Both the position numbers and the translations under genes were made by a program. From Streptomyces sp. V3I7 (GTDB lineage Bacteria > Actinomycetota > Actinomycetes > Streptomycetales > Streptomycetaceae): 64,000 nucleotides of DNA. The DNA lies in NCBI RefSeq assembly GCF_030817495.1, contig NZ_JAUSZK010000001.1, positions 496,001 to 560,000 of the forward strand, written 5' to 3'. The notes beneath the pieces were generated by a model, which searched no databases, was not told where the DNA came from, and worked only from the letters and a program-made list of their open reading frames with translations. This document shows positions 9,869 through 22,269 of the stretch, in pieces. The first letter of the stretch is position 1, and each line of letters begins with the position of its first letter.

Positions 9869-10597
9869 ATGGCAGAGCTGGTCTATCGTCCCGTCGTCGG
9901 CCTCGCCCTGACGATGTTCAAGGCCTGGGACCTCAAGATCGACGTCAAGGGATCGGAGAACATCCCGCGATCCGGCGGGGCGGTGCTGGTGAGCAATCAC
10001 ATCAGCTACCTGGACTTCATCTTCAACGGCCTGGCGGCGCTGCCGCAGAAGCGCCTGGTGCGCTTCATGGCGAAGGAGTCCGTCTTCCGCCACAAGATCT
10101 CGGGCCCGCTGATGCGCGGCATGAAGCACATCCCGGTGGACCGCAAGAACGGCGAGGCGGCGTACGCGCACGCCCTGGACTCCCTCAGGTCCGGTGAGAT
10201 CATCGGGGTGTTCCCGGAGGCCACGATCTCGCAGTCGTTCACGCTGAAGAGCTTCAAGTCGGGCGCCGTGCGCCTGGCCCAGGAGGCGGGTGTGCCGCTC
10301 GTCCCGATGGCGGTGTGGGGCACGCAGCGGCTGTGGACCAAGGGCCAGCCGCGCAACTTCAAGCGCAGCCACACCCCGATCACGGTCCGCGTCGGCGAGG
10401 CGCTGGAGGCTTCCCGCGACCAGTACGCCGGCGCCCTCACCCGCCGTCTGCGCGAGACCGTCCAGGAACTGCTGGACGCCGCCCAGCGCGCCTACCCCGG
10501 CCGCCCCAAGGACGCAGGCGACTCCTGGTGGCTCCCGGCCCACCTGGGCGGCACGGCCCCGACGCAGGAGCAGCTGCGGGCGGCGGAGGCGCGCTGA
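9869..10597 (+). CDS. 1-acyl-sn-glycerol-3-phosphate acyltransferase (PlsC family)
   Basis: A 242-residue lysophospholipid acyltransferase. Motif I is NHISYLDF (NHxxxxD catalytic pair, about residue 45), motif III is FPEATIS (about 117), and PLVPMAVWGTQR is motif IV. The N-terminus is an amphipathic membrane-associating segment (VVGLALTMFKAWDLKI). It would acylate lysophosphatidate to phosphatidate at the inner face of the membrane. Streptomyces carry several paralogues, so lipid specificity is not settled. It stands alone and converges with the B3/B4 gene 25 bp downstream. Confidence 0.92.
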   Translation: MAELVYRPVVGLALTMFKAWDLKIDVKGSENIPRSGGAVLVSNHISYLDFIFNGLAALPQKRLVRFMAKESVFRHKISGPLMRGMKHIPVDRKNGEAAYAHALDSLRSGEIIGVFPEATISQSFTLKSFKSGAVRLAQEAGVPLVPMAVWGTQRLWTKGQPRNFKRSHTPITVRVGEALEASRDQYAGALTRRLRETVQELLDAAQRAYPGRPKDAGDSWWLPAHLGGTAPTQEQLRAAEAR

Positions 10598-17339: not shown

Positions 17340-17732
17340 ATGGTGCACGTACTCAGCAGCCGAACCCTGCTCCGCCCCACCGACCCGGAGCGCTCCCGTG
17401 CCTTCTACGGCGACCAGCTGGGCCTCGCCGTCCACCGCGAGTTCGGCACGGGCCCGGAGCGGGGCACCGTCTACTTCCTCGGCGGCGGCTTCCTGGAGGT
17501 CTCCGGCCGCTCCGACACCCCGCCGTCCCCGGCCCTGCGGCTGTGGCTCCAGGTCGAGGACGCGGCCGCCGCGCACAAGGAACTCCTGGCGAAGGGCGTC
17601 GAGATCGTACGGCCGCCGGTGAAGGAGCCGTGGGGCCTGATCGAGATGTGGATCGCGGACCCGGACGGAACGCAGATCGTTCTCGTGGAGGTCCCGGCCG
17701 ACCACCCGCTGCGGTACCGGCCGGGAATCTAG
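17340..17732 (+). CDS. VOC (glyoxalase/bleomycin resistance) superfamily protein
   Basis: A 130-residue single-repeat-pair VOC protein: LLRPTDPERSRAFYGDQLGL at the N-terminus, LRLWLQVEDAAAAHKELLAKGVEI in the middle and PWGLIEMWIADPDGTQIVLVEVP at the end, the standard beta-alpha-beta3 modules. Metal-binding positions look partly conserved (Glu in EMW and LVEV). The function could be a dioxygenase, isomerase or drug-binding protein. It sits next to helR but is oppositely oriented and converges with it across 15 bp. Confidence 0.88.
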   Translation: MVHVLSSRTLLRPTDPERSRAFYGDQLGLAVHREFGTGPERGTVYFLGGGFLEVSGRSDTPPSPALRLWLQVEDAAAAHKELLAKGVEIVRPPVKEPWGLIEMWIADPDGTQIVLVEVPADHPLRYRPGI

Positions 17733-17747
17733 GATCTTCCGTCTGGA

Positions 17748-19898
17748 TCAGGCGGGGCTCGTGAGGACGACGAGCTGCCGGGTCGCGCGGGTCATCGCGA
17801 CGTACCGGTCGACCGCTCCCTGGACTCCGTCGCCGAACTCCTGCGGGTCGACGAGGACGACCAGATCGAACTCCAGTCCCTTCGACAGCTCGGGTGTCAG
17901 CGAGCGGACGCGCGGCCTCGCCGCGAAGGAGGGGTCGCCGATGACACAGGCGGTCCCCTCGGCGTGGGCGGCGAGCCACGCGTCGAGGACCGGCTCCAGG
18001 TCCGACACCGAGCCGTGTGCGACGGGGACGCCGCTGCTGCGGATGGACGTCGGCACGTTGGCGTCCGGGAGCGCGGCCCGGACGACCGGCTCGGCCTCCG
18101 CCATGATCTCCTCCGGCGTCCGGTAGTTGATGCTCAGGGAGGCGAGGGTGATCCGGTCGAGGCCGACCCGCTCCAGCCGCTCCCGCCACGACTCCGTGAA
18201 CCCGTGCCGGGCCTGGGCCCGGTCCCCGACGATGGTGAAGCTCCGGGACGGGCACCGCAGCAGCAGCATCTGCCACTCCGCGTCGGTCAGTTCCTGCGCC
18301 TCGTCCACGACGACGTGCGCGAACGGACCGGCGAGCAGGTCGGGTTCGACTCCTGGCAGCGCGGTGTCGTCGACCAGACTGTCCTGGAGATCCCGCCCGC
18401 GCAGCATCGTCACCGCGCCCTCCCCGTCGTCGTCGGCGGCGAGGATGGTGTCGATGACCCGGGCCATCCGCGCGCGTTCGGCCTCGGCGGACGCCGCGCG
18501 CCGACGCTCGCGCCGAGCCGCCTCGGGGTCGCCGAGCCGCTGCCGCGCCGCGTCCAGGAGCGGCAGGTCGGACACCGTCCAGGCCTGGGCGTCCGCGCGC
18601 TGGAGCCTGCGTACCTCGTCGGGGGCGAGCCAGGGGGCGCACATCCGCAGATAGGCGGGTACGCTCCACAGGTCGCCGACGAGATCGGCGGCTTCGAGCA
18701 GCGGCCACGCGCGGTCGAGGGCTCCGGCCAGCTCCCTGTCGCCGCGGAGCGCCCTGCGGAACGCCTCGGGCGAGGCGTCGCCGTCGTACTTGTCCCGCAG
18801 GATCGTGAACAGCGCCTCCCGGATCTGCTCGCGCGCCTCGTTGTGCGGTGTGCCCGGCTCGGCCGCTTCGAACGCCTCGGCCCAGTCGGCGGCGCTGAGG
18901 TGGAGGTCGGTCCAGCCGAGCGTGACCGTCATCGGCTCGGTGGGCGGTTCCTCGTAGAACCGGACGGCCGTCTCGATCGCCTTCACCATGTCCGCGGACG
19001 ACTTGAGGCGGGCCACGGCCGGATCGGGCTCTTCCTTCGCCTCGGCCCCCTCGGCGACGAGGTCGCGCAGGATGCAGGTCTGTACGCCCTCCTCGCCGAG
19101 GCTGGGCAGGACGTCGGAGACGTAGCTCAGGTAGGGCCGGTGCGGGCCGACGAAGAGCACGCCGCCCCGGCGGTGTCCGAGGCGCGGGTCGGAGTAGAGG
19201 AGGTAGGCGGAACGGTGCAGGGCGACGACCGTCTTGCCGGTGCCCGGACCGCCGTCCACGACGAGGGCGCCGCGCGAACCGGCGCGGATGACGGCGTCCT
19301 GGTCGGCCTGGATGGTGCCGAGCACGTCACGCATCCGAGGCGACCGGTCGCCGCCGAGGCTGGCGATGAAGGCGGACTGGTCGTCGAGCGCGGCGTGGCC
19401 TTCGAGCCCGTCGCCGGTGAACACCTCGTCCCAGTAGTCGCTGATGCGGCCGCCGGTCCAGCGGTACCTGCGGCGGCTCGCCAGCCCCATCGGGTTGCCG
19501 TGGGTGGCCCCGAAGAACGGCTCGGCCGCGGGCGAGCGCCAGTCGACCAGCAGCCGGCGCCCGGTGCTGTCCGTCAGGCCGAGCCGTCCGACGTACACGG
19601 GCTCGGAGCCGTCGGCGCCGGCCATGTGCCCGAGGCACAGATCCAGACCGAAGCGGCGCAGGGCGCGCAGGCGGGAGGTCAGCCGGTGGATCTCCACGTC
19701 CCGGTCCATCGCCTGCCGGCCGAGGCCACCGGGCGCCCTGCGCTCGGCGTCGAGACGGTCGTTCAGTTCGGCGATCGACTGCTCCAGGCACTCGGCTATG
19801 GCCGCGAAGTGCTCCTCGTCACGGGCGATCAGCGCCGGGTCTGCCTTGGCCGCGAGCCGGTCGGGCAGGTCGAAGGCGCTGGTGGTGAGGGAGTTCAT
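17748..19898 (-). CDS. helR: HelR, RNA polymerase-recycling motor ATPase (rifamycin resistance)
   Basis: A 716-residue UvrD/HelD-like superfamily 1 protein. Walker A is DGGPGTGKT (215-223), Walker B is VVVDEAQELTD (about 525), then VGDRAQARHGF (motif III), SINYRTPEEIM (motif IV) and TPELSKGLEFDLVVLVDP with YVAMTRATRQLVVLTSP at the C-terminus. The N-terminal HTDRL-type region LVDWRSPAAEPFFGATHGNP is the HelD signature. HelR proteins bind stalled RNA polymerase and displace rifamycins. Placement directly after the rifamycin glycosyltransferase and behind a RAE element supports HelR over housekeeping HelD. Confidence 0.9.
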   Translation of the reverse strand: MNSLTTSAFDLPDRLAAKADPALIARDEEHFAAIAECLEQSIAELNDRLDAERRAPGGLGRQAMDRDVEIHRLTSRLRALRRFGLDLCLGHMAGADGSEPVYVGRLGLTDSTGRRLLVDWRSPAAEPFFGATHGNPMGLASRRRYRWTGGRISDYWDEVFTGDGLEGHAALDDQSAFIASLGGDRSPRMRDVLGTIQADQDAVIRAGSRGALVVDGGPGTGKTVVALHRSAYLLYSDPRLGHRRGGVLFVGPHRPYLSYVSDVLPSLGEEGVQTCILRDLVAEGAEAKEEPDPAVARLKSSADMVKAIETAVRFYEEPPTEPMTVTLGWTDLHLSAADWAEAFEAAEPGTPHNEAREQIREALFTILRDKYDGDASPEAFRRALRGDRELAGALDRAWPLLEAADLVGDLWSVPAYLRMCAPWLAPDEVRRLQRADAQAWTVSDLPLLDAARQRLGDPEAARRERRRAASAEAERARMARVIDTILAADDDGEGAVTMLRGRDLQDSLVDDTALPGVEPDLLAGPFAHVVVDEAQELTDAEWQMLLLRCPSRSFTIVGDRAQARHGFTESWRERLERVGLDRITLASLSINYRTPEEIMAEAEPVVRAALPDANVPTSIRSSGVPVAHGSVSDLEPVLDAWLAAHAEGTACVIGDPSFAARPRVRSLTPELSKGLEFDLVVLVDPQEFGDGVQGAVDRYVAMTRATRQLVVLTSPA

Positions 19899-20015
19899 GT
19901 CATCAACTTTCTGAGTCCGCTCGCGATCGGGGCGCGGGAGGAGGGAGGGGGGAAGGGGGCCGGGGCTGCCCGCCCGGCGGTCGGTCGGTCGCGGAGGGCT
20001 ACGGACCCTGGTTGT

Positions 20016-21251
20016 TCACGCGGACACAGGTGCCCGGTCCCGGCTGACCACGTCGAGCAGCAGCCGCGCGGCCACCGCCGCCCCGTCGGTGCCGACCGTG
20101 CCGGCCACGACGGCCGCCCGCGCGCGGGTCTCGGGCGCCAGGGCCGTGGCGAGCGCGGCCGACAGGGAGGAGTACGTCGGCGTCGGCCCGTCGTGTGCCA
20201 CGCCGATGCCCAGGTCGGCCACCCGGCGGGCCCAGTACGGCTGGTCGGTCGCCTGGGGGACGACCACCTGCGGCACCCCGGCCCGGGCCGCGGTCGTCGT
20301 CGTACCCGCGCCGCCGTGGTGGACGACGGCGGCCACGCGGCGGAACAGCGCCTGATGGCTGACGTCGCCGACGACGAAGCAGTCCTCCCCGTCGTCGACC
20401 AGGACCAAGTCCGCCCAGCCGCGGGAGACGACCACGCGACGCCCCTGCGCGCGGACCGCCTCGACGGCCACCCGTGCGACGTCCCTCGCCGCGAGCATGG
20501 GCATGCTGCCGAAGCCGACGTACACCGGCGGTGTGCCGGCGTCCAGGAACGCCACGAGCTCGTCCGGGAGAGGGGTTCGGTCCGGCAGGATCCAGGCGCC
20601 GGTCTGGACGACGCCGAGGTCCGGCGTCTCGCGCCACGGGTCGAGGACGGGGTCCGTCGCCAGCCACGGCCGGTCGCCGACGACGTAGTCCCGGACGTGG
20701 GTGACGGGCGGCAGGCCGAGCGAGGCGCGGTTCGTGTTGAGCGCCGCCCCGAACAGCGCGTCGATGCTCCGCGCGTCCAGGTCCCACAGCGTCCGGTTGC
20801 CGGTCACCTCCGGCGGGAACGGACGGCCCGGGTACGCCAGCGGCGGATGGTGCGGCGACGGCAGGGTGAGCTGCTGGAAGGTCACGGACACGGAGGGGAT
20901 GCCCAGTTTCTCGGCGACCGACCGTGCACCGGCCGCGGCCGGCATGACGCCGGTCGCCACCAGCACATCGCAGCCCTCGGCCGCCGCGACGAGCGTGGCG
21001 AACTGGTCGGCGATCAGCTCCGCCGCGCGCTCGGGCAGGGAGGACGGCGGCGGCGCGGCGGTCGTCAGCGCCCGTGCCGAACGGCCGACCGGAACCAGCG
21101 GTACGCCGACACCGGCCAGCCGCCGCGCGAAGTCCTCGTCCGGCGGTGCACAGACGCGTACCTCCGCGCCGAGTTCCCTCAACCGCACCGCGAGCCTGGC
21201 CAGCGGCTCGACGTCCCCGCGCGACCCATACGTAGACAACAGCACACGCAC
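20016..21251 (-). CDS. rgt: Rifamycin glycosyltransferase (UGT/MGT type)
   Basis: A 411-residue GT-B glycosyltransferase that would use a UDP-sugar to modify the rifamycin ansa-chain hydroxyl and so inactivate the drug. The start VRVLLSTYGSRGDVEPLARL is the UGT N-terminal motif, and the donor site is VVHHGGAGTTTTAARAGVPQVVVPQATDQ near residue 330. GTG 21251 has GGGGGGAG 8 bp upstream; the frame extends to 21305 but without ribosome-binding site. It is upstream of helR (117 bp, same strand) and downstream of a RAE-like inverted repeat, the known genetic context of Rgt enzymes. Specificity is inferred from context. Confidence 0.88.
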   Translation of the reverse strand: MRVLLSTYGSRGDVEPLARLAVRLRELGAEVRVCAPPDEDFARRLAGVGVPLVPVGRSARALTTAAPPPSSLPERAAELIADQFATLVAAAEGCDVLVATGVMPAAAGARSVAEKLGIPSVSVTFQQLTLPSPHHPPLAYPGRPFPPEVTGNRTLWDLDARSIDALFGAALNTNRASLGLPPVTHVRDYVVGDRPWLATDPVLDPWRETPDLGVVQTGAWILPDRTPLPDELVAFLDAGTPPVYVGFGSMPMLAARDVARVAVEAVRAQGRRVVVSRGWADLVLVDDGEDCFVVGDVSHQALFRRVAAVVHHGGAGTTTTAARAGVPQVVVPQATDQPYWARRVADLGIGVAHDGPTPTYSSLSAALATALAPETRARAAVVAGTVGTDGAAVAARLLLDVVSRDRAPVSA

Positions 21252-21312
21252 TTCGCGACTCCCCCCATGTCCACCGGTTTCTGGCTGCGACCGTCGATTG
21301 TGCACGACGACC

Positions 21313-21333
21313 GGGCCCTTGCCGCAAGGCCCC
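21313..21333 (-). promoter_or_regulatory. Rifamycin-associated element (RAE)-like inverted repeat
   Basis: On the minus strand the repeat reads GGGGCCTTGC-G-GCAAGGGCCC: arms 21333-21324 and 21322-21313 around one base, 9 of 10 pairs matching. From memory the published RAE is the 19-bp GGGGCTTGCGGCAAGGCCC; this site matches it apart from one extra C and one extra G placed symmetrically. It lies 62 bp upstream of the rgt start and directly after a TATAGC -10-like hexamer (21345-21340), so it would span the transcription start. Confidence 0.85.
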
Positions 21334-21355
21334 CCATGCGCTATACCTTGAGAGT

Positions 21356-21381
21356 GGCAAGGAGCGGCTGAGCTCCTTGCC
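21356..21381. terminator. Rho-independent-type terminator between VOC gene and rgt promoter
   Basis: A perfect 10-bp stem, GGCAAGGAGC (21356-21365) and GCTCCTTGCC (21372-21381), with loop GGCTGA. A T-rich run with TTGTTTTTG follows on the plus strand. On the minus strand it lies 50 bp past the VOC stop and insulates the rgt promoter from read-through. Note that GGCAAGG/CCTTGCC echoes the core of the adjacent RAE. Confidence 0.75.
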
Positions 21382-21431
21382 TTCGTTGTTTTTGAGGGCT
21401 GTTGGTTTTGAGGGCTCGCAGGAGGCTCAGC

Positions 21432-21860
21432 TCAGTCGAGACAGAATTCGTTGCCCTCGACGTCCTGCATCACGATGCACGAATCGTTGCCGTCGTACAG
21501 GAGTCGCACGCGTACCGCGCCGAGCGGGATCAGCCGTGCGCACTCGGCTTCGAGCGCCGCGAGGCGCTCTTCACCCACGAGCCCGGTGCCGACCCGCACG
21601 TCGAGATGCACCCGGTTCTTGACGACCTTGCCTTCGGGAACGCGCTGAAAGAACAGTCGCGGGCCCACACCTGAGGGATCACTGCATGCGAACCATGAGC
21701 CCTGTTCCTCAGGAGACCGGGAGCGGTCGAAATCGTCCCACGTGGCGAACCCCTTCGGTGGCGGCGATACGACGTACCCGAGCACCTCGCACCAAAAGCG
21801 AGCGACGCGCTCGGGTTCCGCGCAGTCGAAGGTGACTTGGAACTGCTTGATCGATGACAT
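21432..21860 (-). CDS. VOC family protein
   Basis: A 142-residue glyoxalase-fold protein: QVTFDCAEPERVARFWCEVLGY at the start, WFACSDPSGVGPRLFFQRVPE, VHLDVRVG and the closing IVMQDVEGNEFCLD, the typical paired beta-alpha-beta-beta-beta modules with His and Glu metal ligands. Function unknown; relatives are often annotated as bleomycin-resistance-like. A TATGGT hexamer ends 6 bp before the ATG, so the transcript may be leaderless; no good ribosome-binding site was seen. A terminator follows. Confidence 0.88.
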   Translation of the reverse strand: MSSIKQFQVTFDCAEPERVARFWCEVLGYVVSPPPKGFATWDDFDRSRSPEEQGSWFACSDPSGVGPRLFFQRVPEGKVVKNRVHLDVRVGTGLVGEERLAALEAECARLIPLGAVRVRLLYDGNDSCIVMQDVEGNEFCLD

Positions 21861-21948
21861 CGGCGCACCATAACAGGGGGCTCCGCCGGTCATCTCCCGG
21901 TAGGAACCCGCCTGTTGACGACCACCGGTGGGCGCTGTGTCCGCCTCA

Positions 21949-22269
21949 CTACGCGCCGGGAGCGCGGAAAGTGACGTCCCGGCGCGCGGCCTCGTCGATC
22001 TCCTCGACGGTGAGGAGCGGGGTGGCGCGGGTGTGGAGGGCGCCGCTGGCCTTGACCTTGAGGCTGACGGCCGCCATCGAGAGCGTGTCGGGGAAGTCGA
22101 CGATGAGCACGACGTCGTCGGCCCCGAAGGCGAAGTACATGGTCTCGACCGTCCCGCCGAGCCCGCTGACGAGCTGCTCGACCGCGGCCCGGCGCCCGCT
22201 GCCGCCCTCCCCCAGCAGCCCCCTCGTGCCCTCGGTCGTGTAGGTGGCCTGGATCAGGAACTTCGGCAT
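21949..22269 (-). CDS. GYD domain protein
   Basis: A 106-residue small protein with a ferredoxin-like GYD domain: PKFLIQATYTTEGTRGLL, a central VEQLVSGLGGTVETMYFAFGADDVVLIVDFPD and LTVEEIDEAA. The family has no established biochemical role. The ATG has GGGAG 9 bp upstream. It is probably monocistronic, 89 bp from the VOC gene on the same strand. Confidence 0.88.
   Translation of the reverse strand: MPKFLIQATYTTEGTRGLLGEGGSGRRAAVEQLVSGLGGTVETMYFAFGADDVVLIVDFPDTLSMAAVSLKVKASGALHTRATPLLTVEEIDEAARRDVTFRAPGA

Follow-up and report, generated by a model that had tools for sequence, protein, structure and literature searches.

A rifamycin-associated element ahead of an Rgt-like glycosyltransferase gene and helR: a predicted two-gene defence operon in Streptomyces sp. 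V3I7

Introduction

The rifamycin-associated element (RAE), the rifamycin glycosyltransferase Rgt and the RNA polymerase rescue motor HelR are each already known. The RAE has been described as a 19-bp element with a core palindrome, placed upstream of rifamycin-resistance genes. HelR genes, with SVEN_6029 of S. venezuelae as a type, are under RAE control according to the accessible parts of two papers (PMC10719064, PMC8655204), and Rgt (NCBIfam NF000354; Rgt1438), a member of the GT-B fold family, likewise has an RAE upstream. How the RAE senses rifamycin is still to be worked out, as far as the available portions of PMC12802891 and PMC10719064 tell. A further point of comparison is the rifampicin alarm of Bacillus subtilis, where, in the part of the account at hand, a sense and an antisense promoter precede helD (PMC12802891). 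Here we consider a 64,000-nucleotide stretch of the genome of Streptomyces sp. V3I7 (positions 496,001 to 560,000 of contig NZ_JAUSZK010000001.1), hereafter the window, where a glycosyltransferase (GT) gene and helR follow one RAE. We read this locus as a two-gene rifamycin-defence operon under a single RAE leader, with divergent promoters that share the RAE and are most likely governed by a regulator, and give this reading a probability of roughly 0.8. The literature searched holds no account of a recurrent GT-helR operon, of an exchange of HelR type within it or of an antisense half of the leader; the original RAE and HelR papers may contain parts of these.

Two probable resistance genes behind one RAE

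A first-pass annotation, made from the letters of the window, had put an RAE, rgt and helR at one place and on one strand, and all three are found there, on the minus strand (Table 1). The two genes lie behind the RAE, 117 bp apart, and in this gap a consensus scan of 17700-22000 detects neither a promoter-like nor a terminator-like site. As in the known element, the core is a palindrome (CTTGC..CAAG) upstream of a gene; with its G and C runs, it conforms to an RAE consensus that was derived in this analysis. The core itself, CTTGCGGCAAG, is at G000:C1:517318-517328, and the window RAE departs from the family consensus at +11, a position where 3 of 93 aligned loci have G.

By the family test the motor of the window is HelR. 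The homology check proposed for it gives 1293.7 bits against NCBIfam NF041254, which places the protein, like the known HelR of SVEN_6029 type, over the family cut-off of 750; further HelD-like matches exist in the same genome, none of them above that cut-off. The difference from the known type lies in the genetic setting, as helR is here the second gene of the operon and the 117-bp gap before it is free of an RAE. Its closest solved structure in a PDB search is HelD of M. smegmatis (6yxu, 350.5 bits), with which residues 35-713 can be aligned. An intact Walker A motif, GGPGTGKT, is present, and the protein also aligns with relatives. The layout sought for a class II HelR is a short N-terminal arm together with an insert in the primary-channel loop; at what we take to be the position of that loop, the alignment with 6yxu has no large gap.

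The open reading frame (ORF) of the GT spans 20016-21305, with a likely start at codon 19 (21251). This start is probable because relatives mostly have 409-413 residues (101 of 120 listed) and because the first 18 codons of the long frame overlap conserved leader DNA. In a quick maximum-likelihood tree of 113 rows (L123, too short, was left out), the glycopeptide enzymes GtfA, GtfB and GtfD split from the other 110 sequences with a Shimodaira-Hasegawa-like support (SH-aLRT) of 99. These 110 form one set of 29 (support 96) that contains L098, the only sequence found over the Rgt cut-off, to which the window GT is about 60% identical, and one set of 81 (support 97) that contains the window; inside the latter no well-supported smaller set includes the window GT. 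The strict RAE core accompanies 93 of the 110 and a variant core five more; these five, which do carry the leader in a TTGT variant, are among the tree's 17 rows labelled as lacking an RAE. On these grounds the window GT is Rgt-like, in a sister clade of Rgt apart from the glycopeptide GTs. A grouping with macrolide GTs, which the first-pass annotation had named as the outcome that would speak against Rgt, is not seen: the macrolide model MGT gives 52.8 bits, so far below its cut-off of 260 that this identity is rejected (the tree held no macrolide GT), and the model of activator-dependent GTs gives 64.

Two observations on GT relatives may be recorded here. A clade of eight GTs (support 100; L053, L055, L059, L065, L066, L069, L079 and L118) lacks the RAE leader, apart from a 41.4-bit remnant in L055, and lacks helR wherever the flank allows a judgement, with just 209 bases present upstream of the matched GT in L118; this clade may have taken on another role. 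Relatives with 64-83% identity are also found on nine actinomycete plasmid records, four of them predicted mobilizable.

The pairing recurs well outside the window. A scan of named genomes with the window GT gave 139 loci, of which the best 80 were used. The RAE leader is upstream of the GT in 71 of these 80, in 69 with the strict core TTGCnnCAA, all confirmed by a leader model, and in L019 and L043 with the TTGT variant. A HelR-type gene lies downstream in 47 (three others have a flank too short to judge), 40 times a HelR with more than 60% identity and seven times a distant HelD/HelR type with about 37%; the motor is within 0.5 kb of the GT in 46 of the 47 and at 1.5 kb in L060. Six of the seven loci with the distant motor were submitted to NCBIfam, and five of these proteins exceed both the mycobacterial HelD and the HelR_2 cut-offs, L071 remaining below. 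All 47 loci with a motor carry the leader, and none has a leader between GT and motor, either by strict core or by leader model. Judging from these arrangements, helR in such pairs would depend on the leader before the GT, barring a promoter of its own that goes unrecognised. In the order, the 30 loci that score best for Rgt include 26 with the leader (23 with the strict core; L107, L117 and L119 with the variant) and 10 in which helR follows the GT. By comparison of these loci, then, the GT-helR pairing is widespread and recurrent. One of the loci, L048, has a second RAE leader (10097-10213, minus strand, 114.2 bits) beyond helR and on the opposite strand.

A conserved leader of wide distribution

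The known RAE is a short element; that of the window belongs to a longer leader (about 95 bp) in which two predicted -10 boxes face opposite ways and which, in many cases, also includes a putative antisense terminator. Alignment of the 93 of 111 GT loci that have the strict core (which misses the five TTGT-variant leaders, L019, L043, L107, L117 and L119) reveals conservation from about -37 to +38 around the core: CTCTCAACnTATAGCGCAC, then the RAE, then CAGAAT, which begins 25 bases past the first T of the core. Taken alone, the core CTTGCNNCAAG has eight distinct sites in the 6.55-Mb genome and is not enriched (11 strand hits vs 27 for a reversed-pattern control); its chance expectation is about 0.0002 per 150 bp. 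A leader model of 117 positions, with the window sequence among its 62 training rows, finds a single site in this genome, at 105.7 bits, after scoring of 150 out of 4465 first-look candidates, and the recognised RAE regulon of the strain is therefore the GT-helR operon. Two other fully symmetric CTTGCnnCAAG sites were rejected, C1:5664303, inside a helicase ORF, and C1:1857176, just upstream of a gene that by reading is alpha-amylase-like; neither site has runs of G and C, nor is either listed by the leader model.

Because the leader is quasi-palindromic, a pattern search gives hits in both orientations, and TATAGC on one side versus CAGAAT on the other must be used to orient it. The composite TATAGC-N7-GGGnCTTGCnnCAAGnCC, one mismatch being allowed, is present in 105 of the 121 genomes sampled at genus level, in 93 of 246 at class level and in 12 of 149 at phylum level; these samples overlap, and a composite with reversed pattern has no hit in any of the three. 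Of the loci found in this manner (L129-L220, without L128 and L200), 70 of the 71 loci L129-L199 were submitted to the leader model, which matches 69, L139 remaining unmatched; the class-wide extension sampled 20 further sites. Motif labels could be applied to the genes behind the leader at 69 of 71 sampled sites, and gave 26 helR, 18 rox-like, seven GT, six rph-like, one ATP-binding cassette (ABC) transporter and 11 unassigned genes, five of the last being misoriented sites (L136, L148, L151, L174, L180). As cases in point for the presence of known resistance families, two of the rox-like proteins score 853.7 and 905.2 bits, over the rifampin monooxygenase cut-off of 800, a helR fragment reaches 774.8 bits vs a cut-off of 750, and two rph-like fragments, which cover about half of the model, reach 821 and 822 bits of 999. 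The leader also stands before ABC-transporter ATPases, one that passes the drrA cut-off (L168:1560-2357) and one recognised by reading (L170), and before an alpha/beta-hydrolase-like gene (L145:534-1493). To go by their position, these could possibly be further rifamycin-responsive genes.

Predicted opposed promoters and an antisense-oriented hairpin

The RAE sits between a predicted sense -10 of the form CAnAAT and a predicted antisense -10 of the form TAnnTT, each 19 bp from a TTGC hexamer. On the sense side, A2 and T6 of CAGAAT are kept in 93 of 93 loci; on the opposite strand T1, A2 and T6 of TAnGTT are each kept in 92 of 93. For mycobacterial helD, the available part of PMC10719064 reports a sense promoter whose -35 is overlapped by the RAE, in agreement with what is proposed here for the sense side.

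Beyond the antisense -10, the stem of 10 pairs at 21356-21381, followed by a T-rich tail, has the canonical form of an intrinsic terminator; it is on the plus strand and so directed away from the operon. Its fold has a z of -2.80, with one of 200 shuffles equally stable. A stem of at least seven pairs, G-U allowed, that ends exactly 29 bases before the TTGC of the RAE, with loops of 3 to 13 nt, is present in 60 of the 93 GT leaders. A larger set comprises 141 non-redundant leaders, collected as sites with at least 17 of 20 matches to a TATAGC consensus (L151 was read there in the wrong orientation). Because both this set and L129-L220 were selected on TATAGC, its conservation among them is there by construction. 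A perfect Watson-Crick stem of at least seven pairs stands at the fixed place in 61 of the 141, vs a mean of 0.66 and a maximum of 4 in 100 shuffles; by motif label of the downstream gene it is found before GT in 33 of 63, rox in 13 of 24, helR in 7 of 33, rph in 2 of 4, ABC in 1 of 1 and unassigned genes in 5 of 16. On the antisense side the ten bases past the stem have a mean of 5.87 T, vs a background of 1.8; on the sense side there are 2.8 T, in the conserved stretch CTCTCAAC (all 141 leaders).

The stem also covaries. Among 62 of the 93 GT leaders (thinned at 86% identity), in a structure that also contained the RAE arms, the covariation score is 0.139 vs 0.097 in shuffles (0 of 500 as high). 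The score rises to 0.353 vs 0.180 (0 of 500) for 70 matches in pattern-found loci, where each of four other measures beats at least 494 of 500 shuffles; this alignment was fitted to the leader model, and among its rows are two training sites and a weak additional match in L187. In the 62 GT leaders no covariation is seen in the RAE arms, in keeping with the RAE being a DNA site. An antisense RNA made from TAnGTT would be expected to begin at the fixed end of the stem, and the predicted RNA would thus be little more than the terminator. Two other roles were considered for the hairpin. That of a terminator for neighbouring genes is disfavoured by a stem end that stays fixed in front of different genes, and that of an attenuator in which a hairpin arm pairs with the RAE was rejected by reading, as the pairing is lost where the arm varies. 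In the window a second terminator-like repeat (21379-21399, plus strand) overlaps the tail of the first, beside short direct repeats.

Proposed mechanism

How such a leader might work can be outlined as follows. When rifamycin is present, the leader would turn on one transcript for both the Rgt-like GT, whose predicted role is drug inactivation by glycosylation, and HelR, expected to free stalled RNA polymerase and displace the drug. At the RAE the -35 boxes of two promoters that diverge would overlap, one in the sense direction, serving the operon, and one in the antisense direction, whose transcript the hairpin would terminate immediately, in the window as in many relatives. A putative regulator, most likely, would bind the RAE and decide which promoter is open to polymerase. 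With the drug, either this regulator or the polymerase itself would permit the sense promoter; in its absence polymerase would be kept off the sense promoter, possibly through use of the antisense one.

A stricter form of this scheme is tentative and, as a whole, rather doubtful. It would make the RAE a shared -35 region instead of a simple activator site: without drug, polymerase would be spent on a dead-end antisense promoter that gives a self-terminating RNA of about 40 nt in many lineages, and rifamycin, through a regulator or through polymerase, would flip transcription to the sense side, the same cassette standing before genes for GT, monooxygenase, phosphotransferase, HelR and at least one ABC transporter across actinomycetes.

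Weighing the alternatives

The pairing of drug inactivation with target protection under one RAE, already suggested by the first-pass annotation, draws comparative support from a HelR over its cut-off, the clade of the GT, the leader upstream and the motor downstream in relatives, and known resistance genes behind the same leader elsewhere. To be sure, several results weigh against our reading. The -35 matches are weak and the 19-bp spacers long, and the consensus scan found no sigma-70 promoter at the leader. Nine of the 80 GT loci have no leader (L055 being that with the 41.4-bit remnant), and 30 have no HelR-type gene despite an adequate flank. The perfect hairpin is missing in 80 of the 141 leaders, being rarest before helR, and it appears in only 1 of the 20 leaders sampled outside the family of the window, although GT leaders of Actinomadura, Nonomuraea and Kribbella (L010, L016, L041) have it; in the first covariation set, two of five measures, one that counts covarying pairs and one that counts pair types, are not above shuffles (299 and 200 of 500). 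As for the GT, its best family is Rgt, at 520.1 bits (519.9 in a second scoring), under the cut-off of 800, and its best PDB match is the glycopeptide enzyme GtfB (1iir, 472 bits), which together leave room for another acceptor.

The first-pass annotation had placed the RAE just after a -10-like TATAGC. The hexamer is indeed there, but taking it as the -10 of the operon fares less well, the antisense -10 on the opposite strand being the better fit. If TATAGC were the -10 of a sense promoter starting in the RAE, with the hairpin as an ordinary terminator of neighbouring genes, its near-invariance and a placement that suits a start in the G run would be accounted for, and two sense promoters around the RAE are described for mycobacterial helD in the accessible part of PMC10719064. 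The scarcity of the hairpin outside the family of the window also favours this explanation, making it slightly more likely and the promoter switch slightly less so. Yet 92 of 93 loci have C at position 6, whereas the overlapping opposite-strand TAnGTT keeps its positions 1, 2 and 6; the T tail of the hairpin is on the antisense side, and the end of the hairpin is locked to one base before different genes; and for the mycobacterial upstream promoter the accessible part of PMC10719064 gives a start some 20 bp ahead of the RAE, at odds with a -10 at TATAGC. To judge by this base pattern TATAGC is probably not the sense -10, and the explanation as a whole is unlikely, if with some life in it.

A second alternative concerns the sugar acceptor. 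The GT might act on another aglycone (a glycopeptide, another ansamycin or an endogenous compound), HelR alone serving rifamycin resistance and the GT riding on the same inducible promoter. The score below the Rgt cut-off, the 472 bits to GtfB and the name of vancomycin aglycone glucosyltransferase that some sources give to GT relatives are what one would then expect. As GtfB is the best structural match, pairwise similarity alone does not decide; the tree, however, makes the glycopeptide GTs a separate set, the leader precedes the GT in most relatives and in most of the best Rgt-scoring loci of the order, and it is the same leader that precedes rox, rph and helR. Within the order, the Rgt cut-off is exceeded in 1 of 391 genomes (L098, 819.6 bits as protein), four candidates having been scored in most genomes. 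The acceptor is predicted to be a rifamycin, and a different one is unlikely. The label rgt given by the first-pass annotation holds to the extent of Rgt-like: differing from known Rgt by its score, its sister clade and the helR that follows it in the window, the GT is not filed as Rgt.

Polymerase could also be its own sensor, as for B. subtilis helD: the antisense promoter would fire more often, rifampicin-bound polymerase would be arrested there, and the sense promoter would be freed. The conserved antisense -10 and the terminated antisense unit of many leaders are compatible with this, and rifampicin sensing with an antisense promoter has a published precedent, known to us from part of PMC12802891. 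The geometry argues otherwise. In the same portion of PMC12802891 the B. subtilis promoters are convergent, with 39 bp that include both start sites, whereas those predicted in the window are divergent and overlap at the RAE, where an arrested polymerase would block the sense promoter; and B. subtilis promoters moved into mutual exclusion lost induction (PMC12802891, available part). Because the alarm fails when its promoters exclude each other, it would not simply transfer to overlapping divergent promoters, and we favour a regulator at the RAE and hold polymerase as the sole sensor to be quite unlikely. Least credible, and very unlikely, is a hairpin that serves as the DNA operator of a dimeric regulator, an idea to which an inverted repeat with constant spacing to the RAE lends itself but with which loops of 3 to 13 nt, a covarying stem and a T-rich tail on the antisense side agree badly.

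Features of the locus and neighbouring genes

Table 1. Operon and leader elements, with positions in the window.
Feature	Position	Strand	Remarks
helR, predicted class II HelD/HelR RNA polymerase rescue motor, 716 aa	17748-19898	-	NCBIfam NF041254
Rgt-like GT-B glycosyltransferase, 411 aa from likely start	20016-21251	-	ORF extends to 21305
Predicted 5' untranslated region of the operon	21252-21290	-	Start site placed from the sense -10; parts of the DNA conserved in 93 loci
Predicted sense -10 CACAAT	21297-21302	-	Family consensus CAGAAT; spaced 19 bp from an RAE hexamer (TTGC)
RAE palindrome GGGCCTTGCGGCAAGGGCCC	21313-21332	strand-neutral	Two TTGC arms, candidate -35 boxes of both promoters; core and flanks kept in 93 loci aligned on the core
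Conserved TATAGC	21340-21345	-	Every position kept in 90 to 93 of 93 loci, the sixth being C instead of T
Predicted antisense -10 TACCTT	21344-21349	+	Family TAnGTT; positions 1, 2 and 6 each in 92 of 93 loci
Predicted intrinsic terminator in antisense orientation, with stem GGCAAGGAGC/GCTCCTTGCC (21356-21381) followed by a T-rich tail	21356-21393	+	Terminator-like, 10 pairs

Genes of the glyoxalase fold (VOC) lie to either side of the operon, at 17340-17732 (plus strand) and 21432-21893 (minus strand) of the window. Elsewhere in the genome, outside the window, L128:3150-13490 (G000:C1, about 5659.1-5669.5 kb) holds co-directional genes for a PtuA-like ATPase (623.6 bits), a UvrD-like helicase and a DruE/DrmA-like helicase of 2239 residues, a group that by its gene content is a candidate phage-defence island.

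Significance

The layout of the leader gives exact start sites that can be tested, and it separates a regulator acting at the RAE from a polymerase acting as its own sensor. Drug inactivation and target protection, moreover, would often form one unit, the second gene of which comes from two different HelD/HelR types.

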